A stretch of DNA of 54,416 bases from positions 1-54,416 of the forward strand of contig JAUSOQ010000059.1 in the NCBI GenBank assembly GCA_030655755.1. Reading direction: 5' to 3'. The DNA comes from Coriobacteriia bacterium. GTDB lineage: Bacteria; Actinomycetota; Coriobacteriia; Anaerosomatales; Anaerosomataceae. Shown here piece after piece: positions 38,877 to 54,416 of the stretch. The notes under the pieces are model-generated. The model worked only from the letters and a program-made list of their open reading frames with translations. It was not told the DNA's origin and ran no database searches. How positions within the stretch are numbered: position 1 is the stretch's first letter; each line of letters opens with the position of its first letter. The position numbers and the translations under genes are program-made.

Positions 38877-39691
38877 GGTATGTCCTCGCCTTCGACACCG
38901 CGACCGAGCACGTCGCGATCGGACTGGCCGCTCTTGAGGCGCCTGACAGGATGCCGCGCATGATGGCCGAGAAGGACTTCGCTGCGCCTCGAGCTGCTCT
39001 GGGTGCGCTTCTGCCGGCGGTTCGCGATGTCGTGCGCGAAGCCGGTATTCCTGCGGGACGCATCGCGATCGTGGCGGTGGGTCGCGGGCCCGGGTCGTTC
39101 ACGGGAGTGCGCATCGGTGTGGCGTCGGCAAAAGGGTTGGCACACGGTCTGGGGGCGCCGCTCGTCGGTCTCGGTACTCTGGATGCCGTGGCGTGGCGCT
39201 TCTCGGCGCATGAGGGCCTGCTCGCGGTCGTTGGAGACGCGATGCGGGGCGAAGTCTATCCGGCGCTGTTCCGCTGCTCAGGCGGCCGTTGTACGCGTCT
39301 GGAGGAGGACTGTGTCGAGAAGCCAGTGGTTACGGCGGAGCGATGGGCGCGTACCGTCACAGAGCCGGTGCTGCTTGCAGGCAATGGTCTGACGAAGTAT
39401 CAGGGCATCTTAGCCGGAGCTCTGGGGGCACGTGCGACCATCGCCGATGAGTCGCTGTGGACCCCGAGCGGAGCGTCTCTCATCGCGGCCGCCTGGACCG
39501 AAGCGGGCCCCGGCAGCTTGCACTCCGTAGCCGGGCTCGACCCTGTGTCGGCTTTCGAAGAGGCGCATCCGGCCATACTGCTTCCCGTGTACACGCGTCT
39601 GTCTGATGCCGAGGAGGCCGAGCAGCAGCGTGGTGCCGTGTCGATACCGCCCTCAGGCGTATCAGGCCCAGGAGCGGGTGGCGTCTCATGA
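38873..39691 (+). CDS. tsaB: tRNA t6A biosynthesis protein TsaB
   Basis: TsaB is the non-catalytic ASKHA-fold partner of TsaD. The 272 residues begin with [18 protein letters not shown] and have the signature VGRGPGSFTGVRIGVASAKGL. It lacks the metal-binding histidines of TsaD. The start GTG at 38873 overlaps the tsaE stop by four bases, and its stop overlaps the next gene in an ATGA arrangement. The length is a little above the usual 220-240 because of a low-complexity C-terminus. Confidence 0.93.
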   Translation: MRYVLAFDTATEHVAIGLAALEAPDRMPRMMAEKDFAAPRAALGALLPAVRDVVREAGIPAGRIAIVAVGRGPGSFTGVRIGVASAKGLAHGLGAPLVGLGTLDAVAWRFSAHEGLLAVVGDAMRGEVYPALFRCSGGRCTRLEEDCVEKPVVTAERWARTVTEPVLLAGNGLTKYQGILAGALGARATIADESLWTPSGASLIAAAWTEAGPGSLHSVAGLDPVSAFEEAHPAILLPVYTRLSDAEEAEQQRGAVSIPPSGVSGPGAGGVS

Positions 39692-41184
39692 CGGGCTCGG
39701 TTCGCGACATGACACTTCTCGATCTTGATTCGGTGATGTCCATTGAGCGCGCGAGTTTCCTCTCCCCATGGAGTGAAGGGCAGTTCCGCGATGAGCTCGC
39801 CCGTCTAGGCGAAGGCCGCTGCTGGATGGTGGTCGAGGAGGATGGGCGGGTCATCGGTTTCGGCGGTATCGCGGTGTTCGGTGATGAGGCGCATGTGATG
39901 GATCTTGCCGTCGAGTCGGCATACCGGGGTATGGGGATAGGCAGGCGCCTGCTGCTGTCGCTGATGCGCTCGGCAGTGGAAGGTGGTGCCTCCCGGATGA
40001 CTCTGGAGGCACGCCCGGCGAACATGGCGGCCCGTGCTCTGTACGCATCGGTAGGGTTTGTGGAGGCCGGTACCCGACCCGGTTACTATACCGACACGGG
40101 TGAAGACGCCCTCATCATGTGGACGCCTGGACTCTCGGTCGAGGCCGTGGAGGCGATGGTCACCGCTGATCGTGGCGATGACCTGGTACTTGCTATCGAG
40201 ACGTCGTGTGACGAGACTGCTGCCGCAGTCATGCGCGGCGGTCGGGAACTGCTCTCGAGTGTCGTTGCGAGTCAGGTGGACTTCCACGCGCGCTTTGGCG
40301 GTGTGGTGCCGGAGATCGCCTCCCGCAAACACACCGAAGCGATCGTGGCGGCGGTCGATGAGGCGCTTGCCGAGGCGGGTGTCGGTTTCAAAGACCTCAC
40401 GGCGCTTGCGGTGACGCACGGTCCCGGACTCATCGGGGCACTTGTCGTGGGCGTCGCGTACGCGAAAGGACTCTCGCTCGCGACGGGACTGCCGCTCGTC
40501 GGTGTGAACCATCTCGAAGGGCATATCTTCGCGAACAAGCTTGCGGATCCCGCGCTGGAGCCTCCGTTGATCGCCCTCGTGGTCTCGGGCGGACACACTG
40601 CGCTCGTACACGTGCCCGAGTGGGGCGTGTACCACACCCTCGGCGAGACGCTGGACGATGCGGCGGGGGAGGCGTTTGACAAGGTCGCGAAGCTGCTCGG
40701 CCTCGGCTATCCCGGCGGACCGGCGATCTCGCGTCTCGCACTTGAGGGCGATCCGAACGCGATCGCCTTCCCGCGGGCGATGCTGCGCTCCGGGAACTAC
40801 AATTTCTCGCTGTCGGGCCTGAAGACCGCAGTCATCACCTACGTTGAGGCCGAGAAGCGCGCCGGTCGTGAGATCGCGATCCCCGACCTTGCGGCGTCGT
40901 TCCAGGCGGCCGTGATCGATGTGCAGGTCGCCAAGGCGGTACGCGCCGCCGAGGAGTACGGAGTCGAGGCCTTCTGTCTGGCTGGCGGAGTCGCGGCCAA
41001 CGCCGCGCTCCGTGAGGGATTGCGTGTCGCGATGACCGAGCGGGGTATCCGGTTCTCGGTGCCCACCTACGATCTGTGTACTGACAACGCCGCGATGATC
41101 GCAGCTGCTGGGCACTTCCGTCTGCAGAGAGGCGCTTTCCTCGGCCTTGATGCTGAAGCTGTCGCAAACCTGGCGCTCGGGTAG
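39688..41184 (+). CDS. tsaD: Fused RimI N-acetyltransferase and TsaD
   Basis: This 498-residue protein joins two activities. Residues about 1-147 are a GNAT acetyltransferase of the RimI type, with the acetyl-CoA motif RGMGIG at 80-85 and ARALYASVGFVEAG; RimI acetylates ribosomal protein S18 N-termini in E. coli. Residues about 165-498 are TsaD, the threonylcarbamoyl transferase, starting LAIETSCDETAAAV and holding metal histidines H275 and H279 in NHLEGH. A short acidic linker joins them. No stop or restart lies between, so a true fusion is likely. Confidence 0.94.
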   Translation: MTGSVRDMTLLDLDSVMSIERASFLSPWSEGQFRDELARLGEGRCWMVVEEDGRVIGFGGIAVFGDEAHVMDLAVESAYRGMGIGRRLLLSLMRSAVEGGASRMTLEARPANMAARALYASVGFVEAGTRPGYYTDTGEDALIMWTPGLSVEAVEAMVTADRGDDLVLAIETSCDETAAAVMRGGRELLSSVVASQVDFHARFGGVVPEIASRKHTEAIVAAVDEALAEAGVGFKDLTALAVTHGPGLIGALVVGVAYAKGLSLATGLPLVGVNHLEGHIFANKLADPALEPPLIALVVSGGHTALVHVPEWGVYHTLGETLDDAAGEAFDKVAKLLGLGYPGGPAISRLALEGDPNAIAFPRAMLRSGNYNFSLSGLKTAVITYVEAEKRAGREIAIPDLAASFQAAVIDVQVAKAVRAAEEYGVEAFCLAGGVAANAALREGLRVAMTERGIRFSVPTYDLCTDNAAMIAAAGHFRLQRGAFLGLDAEAVANLALG

Positions 41185-48970: not shown

Positions 48971-49149
48971 GTCGTTCTCCTCAAGCGTATTGGTGCGAAA
49001 AGAGCCAAACAGGTGTTTCCAGGCAGAATGCTTGCCTGCCAATATGGTACGTCATCGAGTGCACTGAGCCTCGAACTTGAGGTGCGCCTCACGTGGCGAG
49101 GTGTTCTGCCCGCTGTCTGTGTGAACCCAGTGACGCCGAGATGAACACA

Positions 49150-49455
49150 GTGCCTTTGCGCCTACCACAGAATAGCGCATTGGCCGCCCTGCGGGTTCTT
49201 GTAGCCGAACACGGAGTGGCGTTGTCATAGGCGGCGCCACTCTCGACCCCATCGACGCGGTGATATCGAAGGTCTGAAGCTTCTTGACGAAGGCAAGAGA
49301 GGTGTACTGCCTGCCGCGGTCGGAGTGGTGTACAAGCCCGCTATCCAGCCGGCGCCTGGCCACCGCCAGGTAGAGGAAGCCGTTGGGATGCTTAGTCGTG
49401 CGGCGCGCTTCCTGCCTACGAGGATGTCGTGCTCGTCGGCCCGATCTCTTGGATG
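49150..49455 (-). pseudogene. IS3-family transposase (OrfB) remnant
   Basis: The fragment is recognisable in pieces. GRKRAARL at the 5' end resembles the IS3 helix-turn-helix 21 segment; then, in another frame, GFLYLAVA leads into LVHHSDRGRQYTSLAFVKKL with the second DDE aspartate and ASMGSR. The expected AYDNA follows in a shifted frame. Intervening parts of the catalytic core are missing, so several deletions and frameshifts have occurred. No terminal repeats were found. The rest of 48971-49473 holds no gene I can support. Confidence 0.7.
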
Positions 49456-49473
49456 CCACGGCTAGCGTGGCGA

Positions 49474-50226
49474 CTAGCTACTGCGCCTTGCGCTTACCAG
49501 AAGATTCCGGGTCAGCACCTTGCTTCCGGCTGCCCCGGTTTCCGCCAGGTTCCACGCGAGCAACCCTGACCTGATGATCTGCCACGCTATGAAGCGCACC
49601 GAGGACGCGACACTATATAGCAGGGGTACGGGTCCCGTCTCGCGCACTTCAACATCAACGAAACCCGCTTCGGTCAACAGGCGTCCTATTGAGTTGCAGT
49701 TGAATGCCAACTCATGCGTAATGTCGCCGTATCGCATGGCTGCGCCGAAAGGACTATCAGCATTCGGCGTCTGCAGCACTAACCGCCCGCCGGGTTTGAG
49801 TGCGGACATGCATTCGTCGAAAAACTTCAGAACCTCCGGCTTGCGCAGGTGCTCAACAAAATCCAGACTCGTGATCAGGTCAAATTCCTCAGGATGAACC
49901 CGCAAGTAGTCAAGTACGTTCATCTGCTGTACGTCCGGGACAACCTCACGAGCACATCGTACCTGGTCAGGACTGATGTCAACACCAGTGATGAGCTGGT
50001 ATCCCTGCGAGGAGAAGTAGTGGAGGAGACGTCCATAACCACAGGCGAGATCCACGATGCGAGCATCATGCCCCTTTGGTAGCTAACCACGCAGGTACTA
50101 CTTGTATGCGCGTTCCCAGCGGGTTGAGGCCTGTTCATCGAACTGCCTTGGCGCGTCTTGAAAGATGGTGCCGTAATTGGAATAGAGACGACTACGGTAC
50201 TCTGCAGCGTCATTCTCGTCACGCAT
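49474..50226 (-). pseudogene. Class I SAM-dependent methyltransferase broken by two in-frame amber codons
   Basis: One reading frame of 251 codons runs from the ATG at 50226 to the TAG ending at 49474. It has GAGGGAG before its start. The methyltransferase motif I is VDLACGYGRLLHYF at codons 58-71, motif post-I is GVDISPDQV, and LTSLDFVEHL and LKPGGRLVLQTPN follow. Codons 43 (50100-50098) and 48 (50085-50083) are both TAG, just before motif I. The downstream part could restart at a GTG at 50055, but that removes the helical N-terminus and has no good binding site. The neighbours suggest a surface-glycan or lipid methyltransferase. Confidence 0.75.
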
Positions 50227-50252
50227 GCTGTATATACTCCCTCTAGACCTTG

Positions 50253-51572
50253 TCAGGACCTGTCGTAGGTCGAATCACTCAGCTTGCGTGCTTTCCCGTA
50301 TAGAACATAGCGGGCGCGTGCCGCAGTCAGCAGAAACTGCCCACCAAAATATACAGGGACGGCCCACGCGGCGCCCTGAATCCCATAGGCGAGCACCATG
50401 GGCGGAACGATGAACAAGCTGAGTGCGGCCCCACCGATCTGCGCGAGGGTCACTCCGCGCGTGTCGTTTCGAGCATAACAGATGCGCTCAACAACCTGCG
50501 TACAGCCAACGAACACATAGCCCGCGCCAATCCAGATCATCAGCGATGAATACACTCGATACTCTGAAGCCAACAGCACGCTGGCGATCTGCTGGTGCAG
50601 TAAGGCTATAGTGACGAGGAGCGCTAGCGACGCGCCTAGGACAGCGGCGAGCCACACCGCAAATACTCTGCGCTGCCCCGAGCGGTCACCGACGCTCACC
50701 CGCGCGTAGTAGACTTGCCGCAAAGTCAACTCCACACCATTTGAAAGCATCAGGAACGGGCGACTCGCAAGGCCATACACCGCCGCATAGATTCCCGCGA
50801 GTTCCAATCCTGCAAGACCGCCAATGATATACCGATCCGCCTGACCACTTACCCATCCGACCAGCGGCAGTAGGATCAGCGGCTTGGCGTACATCCACAA
50901 TTCCCCGGCACCTGCAACACCCTCCTGCTGGTTCGCTGGTCTTGGCAAAACACGTACATGATGCTCTGAGCGCGACAACACCGCAAACCCCGCCAGTGTC
51001 AGCGTAGTCCCAGCAATGTAGCCACCAACCACTGCCAATGCGCTAACGCCGAACACCAACACTGCCACCACCGCGAGAACTGGCCGTAACCACGCATCTG
51101 CCGCGACCAATAACGCCATGGGCCGCTGTCTGCGTGCGGCGTTCAAGAACACCACTTGAAAAGTGCGAGCAACCTCCACAACAAACAAAGCACCACAGGC
51201 CAACCCGAGAAACGCAGTGCCACCGATGGATTGGTACCATGCCCCGAGTACGACCACGAGGAGGGCAAAACCCCACACCACGGGTCGCCGCAACGCGGCA
51301 ACCACGGTACGACGCAACTCAGACTCTCCCGAAGTACCTGTGCACTCTGGGTGGAAGCGCAGTGCGGCCTGCATCATCGGTGTCACGGCCAACCCTTGCG
51401 CCAGCACTACAATGCCAATCGCAAGTACAACGCTACCGTAGATGGATGGTGGAACCACCTCAGTAACAAGCCGTAACCCGACCAGAGTGCCCACCGCGGA
51501 TGCAAGTTGACCTGCGAACACCCAACCTGCTTCTCCGGCCAGCCTCTTGCGTGATGCCGTCAGCAGACTCAT
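50253..51572 (-). CDS. Oligosaccharide flippase-family membrane protein
   Basis: The 439 residues are mostly hydrophobic, giving about 12 predicted membrane segments, and fit the Wzx-like polysaccharide transporter family: GEAGWVFAGQLASAVGTLVGL at the start, PPSIYGSVVLAIGI next, and GQADRYIIGGLAGLELAGIYAAVYGL in the middle. Such proteins flip lipid-linked sugar units across the membrane. The start is ATG with only a weak binding site (GGACTTGAG). It lies between the broken methyltransferase and a glycosyltransferase. The substrate is not predictable. Confidence 0.82.
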   Translation of the reverse strand: MSLLTASRKRLAGEAGWVFAGQLASAVGTLVGLRLVTEVVPPSIYGSVVLAIGIVVLAQGLAVTPMMQAALRFHPECTGTSGESELRRTVVAALRRPVVWGFALLVVVLGAWYQSIGGTAFLGLACGALFVVEVARTFQVVFLNAARRQRPMALLVAADAWLRPVLAVVAVLVFGVSALAVVGGYIAGTTLTLAGFAVLSRSEHHVRVLPRPANQQEGVAGAGELWMYAKPLILLPLVGWVSGQADRYIIGGLAGLELAGIYAAVYGLASRPFLMLSNGVELTLRQVYYARVSVGDRSGQRRVFAVWLAAVLGASLALLVTIALLHQQIASVLLASEYRVYSSLMIWIGAGYVFVGCTQVVERICYARNDTRGVTLAQIGGAALSLFIVPPMVLAYGIQGAAWAVPVYFGGQFLLTAARARYVLYGKARKLSDSTYDRS

Positions 51573-51616
51573 TGCTCAAGTCCAGAATATGGACCTCGAA
51601 GCGCGGGACTCAACAT

Positions 51617-52621
51617 TCAGATTCGCCCCAGGTCTCGAGACGACACGCCCACTATCTCGGTGTACAAGTCAAGGTACCTGCCCGCTATCGTCTCTGCGGA
51701 GAAGCGGCAAACGTTCACTGTGCCCTGCTCAATGACTCGCTCCCTATAGGCCTTGTCATGAATGAGCCTCAACACCGACGAACGAATCTCCTCGACGTTG
51801 AAGGGATCGACCACGCAAGCACCCGGACCTGCGACTTCCAGCATAGGAGAGATCGCGGATGTGATCACCGGCCGTCCAACAGCCTGCGCCTCGATGATTG
51901 GAAGACCGAACCCTTCACGCTCGGAGACGAATGCGACTAGATCACAGGCGAGGTATTGCGCGTGCAGAGCTTCGTCGCTAAGTCCTACGTGATTCTCGAA
52001 GTCCAGGCCCATATGTACCAGTCTCTCGCGTGTCGCCTCGTCAAGTGACCCGACTACTATGAGCTTGCATGGAATCTCTTGCAGGGCTTCGCTCACTCGG
52101 CCCAAGTTCTTCCATGGGGCGGTGCCGATGAACAGGATTCTCGGGCACAGCTCATCGAATTCATGAGGAACCGTGTGGTATCGTTGCGCCACGGGACACT
52201 CGATGACGTGCACCTCTGAGCAAACTGCGGGACAGTGGGTCTCCAGTTGGCTCTTCGTTTCCTCGGAAATGGCAGTCACGGTTGTTGCCCGGCCTAACGG
52301 CCAATCGAACCACAACTTCTTAAACACCCGTTTGCGCAGCCCCTGGAGTCCATACAGATAGTGATTAATGTCGCACACGGTCACGATGGTCTTCCTGCGC
52401 GGCAAGAACAGTGCGATGTAATGGACATCCCCGGTCACATGATAGATGTCGGACTTCATGCGCCTGAGGGTCAGAACGTCACGAACACTGCCCCACTTCG
52501 TTGCGAGCGAGTATTCGGAGACGGCAACCTCCTGTCTTAAGACGTCCGCGATTTCGGAGAAAAGTGTCTCAATGCTGTAGCGGCCACGAACGCGGCTGCG
52601 ATAGACCAACGTAACCTTCAC
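51617..52621 (-). CDS. Glycosyltransferase family 4
   Basis: The 334 residues follow the GT-B layout. The N-terminal half has VYRSRVRGRYSIETLF and YHVTGDVHYIALFLP; the C-terminal half has ILFIGTAPWKNLGRVSEAL and the donor-binding SEREGFGLPIIEAQAVGRPVIT with the E-x7-E pattern. The start is GTG, two bases beyond the stop of the wzz-like frame, so the two were once coupled. It should transfer a sugar to the growing glycan; donor and acceptor are unknown. Confidence 0.88.
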   Translation of the reverse strand: MKVTLVYRSRVRGRYSIETLFSEIADVLRQEVAVSEYSLATKWGSVRDVLTLRRMKSDIYHVTGDVHYIALFLPRRKTIVTVCDINHYLYGLQGLRKRVFKKLWFDWPLGRATTVTAISEETKSQLETHCPAVCSEVHVIECPVAQRYHTVPHEFDELCPRILFIGTAPWKNLGRVSEALQEIPCKLIVVGSLDEATRERLVHMGLDFENHVGLSDEALHAQYLACDLVAFVSEREGFGLPIIEAQAVGRPVITSAISPMLEVAGPGACVVDPFNVEEIRSSVLRLIHDKAYRERVIEQGTVNVCRFSAETIAGRYLDLYTEIVGVSSRDLGRI

Positions 52622-52622
52622 T

Positions 52623-53086
52623 TCAGCGTACCTCCGAGATCATGAGCGAACGGTGGCGTACGTTCTCAAGCACTTCACGTCCCTTGCGTGATGCGGTCTG
52701 GATGCTTGCAGCCTCCATCGCCGTCTGCGAGTCGCCGTAGGTGCCTCCGACGCTCACGATATTGGCCTGCGCCACCACAGAGATTGTCGCGTGTTTCATG
52801 AGTTCATCAGGCGGACGTCCAGCCCAAGCGTGCTGATGGCGTTCTCCGGTACCCTCCAGCTGCGTCTGTGTCGTCAGACCGCGTTCCGCCTGATTGTACT
52901 CGGAAATCGTCGTTCCTAAGAGCGCGGCACGGGTGTGCTTATCTGAGGCCAGTATGCGAGCTTTGGACTCGTACGTGGGCGCTTGGATGACGCTGACCAC
53001 TACCGCCACAATTGCAGTGACCCAGACTGCTGACATGATGAGCGCTTGCGAACACGCATGACTTTCAGGTAATCGTGCAGTTCCAC
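52623..53086 (-). pseudogene. Wzz-like chain-length determinant, frameshifted and truncated
   Basis: The gene starts at the GTG at 53086 with AGGAGG at 53099-53094. The first codons read VELHDYLKVMRVRK, the N-terminus of Wzz/BY-kinase adaptor proteins. Near 53040 the frame shifts, and the hydrophobic segment VTAIVAVVVSVIQAPTYESKARI continues in another frame. The periplasmic part ends early (137 residues after the shift), and the second membrane helix is missing. The total span is 464 bases, not a multiple of three. It once regulated polysaccharide chain length, and is probably inactive. Confidence 0.72.
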
Positions 53087-53157
53087 ACGTATGCCTCCTG
53101 ATTTATGAGCGGTTGTGTCCCGGAGTCTCTCCAAATTGCCATCCGGACGGCTCCATT

Positions 53158-53179
53158 CTAGCTGACAGCCGTCAGCTAG
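53158..53179. repeat. Perfect inverted repeat at the IS630 insertion site
   Basis: CTAGCTGAC at 53158-53166 and GTCAGCTAG at 53171-53179 flank AGCC. Each arm ends with a CTAG. The IS630 element lies in the CTAG of the right-hand arm, so the palindrome is complete only because the target TA is duplicated. It may have been a terminator or operator before the insertion. Confidence 0.75.
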
Positions 53180-53208
53180 TAGTGCATTCCTGAACAACGG
53201 TTACACAT
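53179..53208. repeat. IS630 left terminal inverted repeat
   Basis: This repeat starts GTAGTGCATTCC and matches the right end at 54384-54413 in reverse complement, with about six mismatches over the roughly 30 bases, mostly in the middle (TGAACA against CACAAT). Its inner edge runs into the transposase stop codon at 53208-53210. Confidence 0.88.
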
Positions 53209-54335
53209 CAGACCAGCCCCAGATCGAACTTGTTCCAGCGGAACACGACGGGTGATGCGTTGAACTCGTCGATGCCCTGCAGGATGCGCGTTTTCAGCTC
53301 GTCGATCGAATCCACTCGGATGTGGCGCAGGAACGTCCTGGCCATCTTCGAGAACACGCACTCGATGAGGTTGAGCCAGGAGCCGTGCTTGGGCGTGTGG
53401 ACGTACTCGAACCTCCCCGGCCGTGTGCCGAGATAGGCCATGGTCTCCTTCGAGATGTGAGCCGAGTGGTTGTCCAGCACCACCCGGATGGTCGCGTCGG
53501 GCGGGTAGTACCCGTCGAGCCGCTTGAGCAGCCCGATGAACTCCACGCTGCGATGGCGGTCCTCCACGTTCGCGAAGATGTGGCCCGAGTGCAGGTCGAT
53601 CCCGGCCAGGATCGAGACCGTGCCGTGCCGGACGTATTCGTGGTCGCGCGCGACGCACGCGGCACGGCCCGGGACCGGCGGCAGGTCGGGCGCGGTCGTG
53701 CCCAGCGCTTGGACCCCGGGCTTCTCGTCGACGCTGACGCTGTAGACTGGGGCCGACCCGCTCACTTCGGCGTTGATCGAGACCTCCCGGTACACCATCA
53801 GGACCTCTTGCATCTTGCGGTCGAAGTCAGGATCCCGCTTCTCAAGGTAGTAACGGATCCTGTGGGGTTTGATGTCGTTGTCGTCGAGGATGCGCCACAC
53901 GGTGGTCTTGCCCGCACGCGCGAGCCGGGGGAAACCGGCGGCCCCGGCGTGTTCGGACACGAACCGCGCCAGCTCCGAGACCGTCCACAGTTCAGCGGCC
54001 AGGCCATGGTCCTTGGGTCTGGTGCAGGCGACGCTCACCACCCACGCCTTGGCCTCGTCGCCGATCTCCGGCTCGTGCGGACGGTGGTAGGTGTCCTTCA
54101 GTCCAGCCTGCACGCCCGCCGCCAGCGCCTTGTCGATGCACCTGTAGATCGCGGGACGGCTGAGGCCGATCCGCCGCTGCAGGCCGGTGATCGAGGCGCC
54201 TTCCGCGTAGCCGAGTAAGACCTTGGCGCGCTCCACCTCGCGCACCGACGCCGTTCTCGATCCGGCCAGTCCCTTGAGCATGGTCCTTTGCCCCTCCGTC
54301 AACACGAGCGCCGCACGTCTCGTCTTCCCCGCCAT
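53208..54335 (-). CDS. IS630-family transposase
   Basis: The 375-residue protein has an N-terminal helix-turn-helix (about 45-75, ITGLQRRIGLSRPAIYRCIDKAL) and a DDE catalytic domain. The triad is visible as D203 in VDEKPGVQA, D288 in VLDNHSAH and E325 in HGSWLNLIECVFS, with 36 residues between the last two, as in IS630/Tc1-mariner enzymes. A frame from 54374 is open, but GGAGGCGATC at 54345-54336 directs the ATG at 54335. No break is seen, so the enzyme could be active. Confidence 0.94.
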   Translation of the reverse strand: MAGKTRRAALVLTEGQRTMLKGLAGSRTASVREVERAKVLLGYAEGASITGLQRRIGLSRPAIYRCIDKALAAGVQAGLKDTYHRPHEPEIGDEAKAWVVSVACTRPKDHGLAAELWTVSELARFVSEHAGAAGFPRLARAGKTTVWRILDDNDIKPHRIRYYLEKRDPDFDRKMQEVLMVYREVSINAEVSGSAPVYSVSVDEKPGVQALGTTAPDLPPVPGRAACVARDHEYVRHGTVSILAGIDLHSGHIFANVEDRHRSVEFIGLLKRLDGYYPPDATIRVVLDNHSAHISKETMAYLGTRPGRFEYVHTPKHGSWLNLIECVFSKMARTFLRHIRVDSIDELKTRILQGIDEFNASPVVFRWNKFDLGLV

Positions 54336-54383
54336 GATCGCCTCCGTCGAGAGCTGGGACAGCATCATGGCCATTGTAGCCTA

Positions 54384-54413
54384 ATATGTAACCGTATTGT
54401 GGGAATGCACTAC
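54384..54413. repeat. IS630 right terminal inverted repeat
   Basis: Read on the minus strand it starts GTAGTGCATTCC and continues CACAATACGGTTACATAT, matching the left end. It is followed outward by TA and then G, completing CTAG at 54413-54416, where the window ends. Confidence 0.88.
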
Positions 54414-54416
54414 TAG

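Follow-up and report, generated by a model that had tools for sequence, protein, structure and literature searches.

The window analysed here is a stretch of 54,416 nucleotides from a Coriobacteriia bacterium (contig JAUSOQ010000059.1). It contains a methyltransferase frame with two stop codons inside it, and the question arises whether this gene is broken, wrongly sequenced, or expressed in spite of its stops. The frame occupies 50226-49474 of the minus strand and is assigned to the class I SAM-dependent methyltransferases (Pfam Methyltransf_23, Methyltransf_11 and Methyltransf_25). It starts with ATG and comprises 251 codons, the last of which is the terminal TAG (49474-49476). Exactly two internal stops are present, both TAG and 15 bases apart, at codon 43 (50098-50100) and codon 48 (50083-50085), and apart from these the frame is open from its ATG to the terminal TAG. 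The stretch VDLACGYG, which we take to be motif I of SAM-dependent methyltransferases, begins at codon 58, ten codons behind the second TAG. Over the same 250 codons the other five frames contain 9 and 19 stops on the same strand and 6, 8 and 10 in antisense. A GGAG is located 10 bases 5' of the ATG, which lies 26 bases past the stop codon of the upstream ORF; this spacing together with the GGAG fits an operon. From a GTG at codon 58 an open body of 193 codons (49474-50055, minus strand) follows the stops; it begins at motif I, does not include the N-terminal 57 residues, and contains no further stop or frameshift. The preliminary description of this locus, which had reported two ambers just before motif I, an otherwise open frame of 251 codons and a good binding site at the start, proved accurate in these points.

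Two stops within the first 57 codons are the commonest count in shuffled sequence (1298 of 5000 mononucleotide shuffles), and the claim that this part is coding therefore leans on homology and codon usage and not on openness. With the open body only, Methyltransf_23 reaches 57.5 bits over profile positions 28-163. When X is set at both stops the score is 64.1 bits, far above the curated Pfam cut-off of 27 bits which decides membership in this class, and the match extends over profile positions 5-163 (residues 33-193) and crosses both stops. Models which start at motif I barely shift between body and read-through, as seen for Methyltransf_11 (61 to 60.5 bits), Methyltransf_25 (59.2 to 60.4) and likewise Methyltransf_12 (51.2 to 50). 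In local alignments the score of residues 28-57 against one homologue (L051) was matched by 1 of 2000 shuffles, and the same holds for residues 1-57 against another (L048). Each of the remaining ten pairs gave a weaker result, the weakest being residues 36-57 against L052, where 787 of 2000 shuffles reached the score. Codons 1-42 alone show only weak homology; the score of the best homologue was reached by 23 and 33 of 2000 shuffles in two tests, and phmmer returned no match below E=1 for them.

Codons 1-57 have a log-likelihood in codon usage of +0.25 bits per codon. None of 256 same-strand out-of-frame windows (-0.70 +/- 0.22) reached that value, and 9 of 128 in-frame windows scored as low or lower. 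A second codon test left out three neighbours and also counted antisense frames; here 6 of 110 windows in other frames reached the value of codons 1-57. Taken by homology and codon usage, the frame upstream of the stops appears to be coding. A chance frame, for which the shuffle-like number of stops would speak, was rejected on the homology across the stops and the codon usage. A frameshift around the stops was also rejected: the +1 frame reads past both of them without a stop, but its codon score is -0.24 and its translation is by eye unlike the homologues.

Homologues were searched for in a phylum sample of 396 genomes at a threshold of E <= 1e-12. Matches were found in 32 genomes, the window's own included, and give 35 rows. 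Leaving aside the row of the window itself, none of the 34 others contains an internal stop, and 14 of them span both stop columns by query range (start at or before residue 43, end behind residue 48). The disabling in-frame lesions are thus without counterpart in the homologues found, as is expected of a pseudogene. At the order level (69 genomes, same threshold) only the window's own genome and one other, G029, gave a match, and that of G029 is free of stops. With the body as query and a threshold of E <= 0.001, weaker matches occur in 36 of 60 relatives, while G001, the sole other genome of the same genus, had no match in the order search at E <= 1e-12 or in the body search at E <= 0.001. 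A close orthologue was found neither in the order nor in the phylum nor in the related-locus searches. The last of these gave one locus among genome contigs (Blautia) and none among viral contigs; 73 plasmid and 6 phage records matched, each with less than 60% identity.

Eleven chosen homologues carry A, Q, P, A, A, gap, A, R, E, R, E in column 43 and W, L, A, L, F, gap, gap, K, T, L, R in column 48. Neither column looks conserved, in an alignment which is loose at this place. The comparison proposed in the preliminary description thus leads to variable residues in stop-free matches, with no conserved residue apparent. The likeness to the Methyltransf_23 and Methyltransf_11 methyltransferases is seen in the Pfam match over residues 33-193, in the best solved relative, the methyltransferase 3dli, which aligns from query residue 40, and in the homologue L052, an open frame of 252 amino acids aligned across residues 8-248. 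What sets the gene apart from these proteins is the pair of in-frame TAGs and an identity of only 24-40% to the matches found.

All this makes it probable that the methyltransferase gene became a pseudogene recently, through two nonsense changes. The ancestral gene would have encoded a class I SAM-dependent methyltransferase, whose substrate was probably a sugar of the surface polysaccharide that the adjacent genes produce. Provided that the organism itself carries these stops, as we assume, the two nonsense changes near the 5' end would stop translation after 42 residues, ahead of the SAM-binding motif I, and for this reason a working enzyme is not expected. The remaining frame would still be open because the loss is recent. 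Against a pseudogene it counts that nothing else within the gene points independently to decay: the 193 codons are intact, and this body has a codon score of 0.29, similar to the scores of its open neighbours, the flippase-like ORF (0.19) and the glycosyltransferase ORF (0.29). Loss of a gene by mutation is an ordinary event and most likely what happened here.

The neighbourhood is rich in IS sequences. On the minus strand, beginning at 54416, the order is IS630 element, Wzz-like gene, glycosyltransferase, flippase-like gene, methyltransferase, IS3 remnant and Polysacc_synt_2 gene. The IS630 element (53176-54416) has an open transposase and 36-nt inverted repeats (81% complementary) and reaches the window end. 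The Wzz-like gene (52623-53086; Pfam Wzz 19.9 bits, cut-off 25.5) starts in a frame different from that of its body; by our own reading its 5' limit would be a GTG behind AGGAGG. The frame change lies around 53000-53090 on the minus strand, directly behind the IS630 copy. The glycosyltransferase ORF (51617-52621, Glycos_transf_1, 334 codons) and the membrane protein ORF (50253-51572, 439 codons) are both open and on the minus strand. We recognise the membrane protein as presumably flippase-like; it had no Pfam match up to E=1 and no NCBIfam match. Directly behind the methyltransferase lies the remnant of an IS3-type transposase (49052-49459, minus strand). It matches rve (positions 53-99 of 102, 25.1 bits) and NF033516 (33.6 bits), both below cut-off, and its codon score is negative. 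Decayed surroundings, as had been claimed earlier, are therefore found in the IS3 remnant, the frameshifted Wzz-like gene and the IS630 element, but not in the two upstream ORFs, both of which are open.

In a DNA search of the family's 26 other genomes, in each of which 11 candidate stretches were scored, the Polysacc_synt_2 gene was matched in 17. The region of about 48,990-53,175 gave matches only to IS3-side pieces (49,218-49,475) and to one Wzz-like stretch of 52 bases (53,035-53,086, in G004). Since the region is almost unmatched in these genomes and the Polysacc_synt_2 gene is matched in 17 of 26, it looks like an accessory polysaccharide cassette in partial decay, the loss of which is easily tolerated. 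The window's own genome gave two more short matches: contig C12 matches within the IS3 remnant, and contig C53 matches over 66 bases next to the IS630 copy. Beside the terminal stop of the methyltransferase, about 42 bases (49434-49475) are 83-90% identical in the relatives G011, G016 and G019; this stretch is probably IS sequence.

Of the other explanations, an error in sequencing or assembly survives best, although we consider it unlikely. One or both sites would then be sense codons and the gene intact. The otherwise open body agrees with this, the genome is a draft of 81 contigs, and the IS630 copy starts about 3 kb away. On the other hand, it seems improbable in our judgement that the same gene would receive two wrong bases at a distance of 15 nucleotides and that each would create a stop, and matched stretches in the same genome are free of internal stops (17 of 17 for Glycos_transf_1 and 8 of 8 for rve).

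Less probable still is readthrough, by which an amber-decoding tRNA or ordinary leakiness would yield a little full-length enzyme and the stops would damp expression. The intact body frame behind the stops is in line with it. So is the study by Belinky et al. 2021 (PMC7918605), which argues that in-frame stops in bacterial genes are not always inactivating, reports such genes with dN/dS below 1 and suggests readthrough. The genes of that study resemble ours in having nonsense codons within an otherwise open frame. Their case, however, is built on conservation and dN/dS, while both stops of the present gene are missing from every homologous match seen. Moreover, successive stops multiply the readthrough loss.

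Nor does the decoding machinery favour it. The genome encodes an open RF1 (529 bits) with the GGQ and a PxT stretch. With the Rfam tRNA model 39 tRNAs were found, all of which were read by ARAGORN. None of the 39 has a CTA anticodon, in a list that is incomplete as it holds no Phe, His or Asp tRNA. A pattern of CTA-anticodon arm and T arm occurs at one site, where ARAGORN calls no tRNA. The search for an amber suppressor tRNA suggested earlier thus yielded none among these 39, and amber decoding is without support, although the incomplete list leaves it a little room. The absence of Phe, His and Asp tRNAs from the list stands beside a completeness given as 100 for this genome. Still fainter is the chance that the closely spaced ambers are kept, so that low readthrough, owing to leaky termination or to a suppressor tRNA missing from the list, leaves the polysaccharide methylated partly or in part of the population. 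If readthrough were true, it would mean double-amber control of a surface-sugar gene.

About as improbable as readthrough in general is a restart, in which a shortened protein of 193 residues would be made from the GTG at 50055 or by re-initiation past the stops. The 193-codon frame is open and includes motif I onward. Motif I, however, lies within the first strand of the SAM-binding fold, and a start at this GTG would fall inside that strand. Homology also extends upstream of the GTG, with Methyltransf_23 matching from profile position 5 and 3dli from query residue 40, and the nearest purine-rich stretch, 15 bases before the GTG, is by eye too far away. Restart, like readthrough, is possible and has no positive support.

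General reassignment of UAG was rejected on RF1 at 529 bits and on TAG terminating 8 of 16 chosen genes of the window. Pyrrolysine decoding finds no support in the search for PylS, whose best match is far under the cut-off (30.8 against 178.15 bits), and selenocysteine was rejected because the tRNA-Sec of the genome, with anticodon tca, reads TGA and not TAG. In 14 genomes used as PylS controls, 13 had some match and one was above the cut-off. That TAG is the usual stop in the window had been stated before; it holds insofar as TAG is the commonest, the rest of the 16 genes ending with TGA (5) or TAA (3). The view that general recoding is unlikely fits the presence of RF1 and the frequent use of TAG as terminator. 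The pyrrolysine-containing methylamine methyltransferases MtmB, MtbB and MttB share with the present gene that they are methyltransferases with an in-frame amber codon. They differ by belonging to another fold and family and by having one single Pyl codon in the active site, and PylS is here below the cut-off.

A recent pseudogenisation instead of recoding, as read in the preliminary description, is accordingly the best supported explanation, given RF1, no CTA tRNA found, PylS under the cut-off, stop-free homologues and the IS-rich neighbourhood. As a pseudogene the locus is of small importance beyond annotation, which should flag it as a disrupted gene. In that case an annotation as amber-recoded enzyme, or as a protein of 193 residues with a spurious start codon, would be wrong.

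Two minor observations were made beside this gene. Two equal-scoring tRNA-Sec matches (L049 on contig C15 and L050 on contig C77) each lie 44 bases from a contig end and look like one repeat split by the assembly. Within the window, a single ORF on the plus strand (39688-41184) encodes a GNAT acetyltransferase domain followed by TsaD, which we take to be a RimI-TsaD type fusion.
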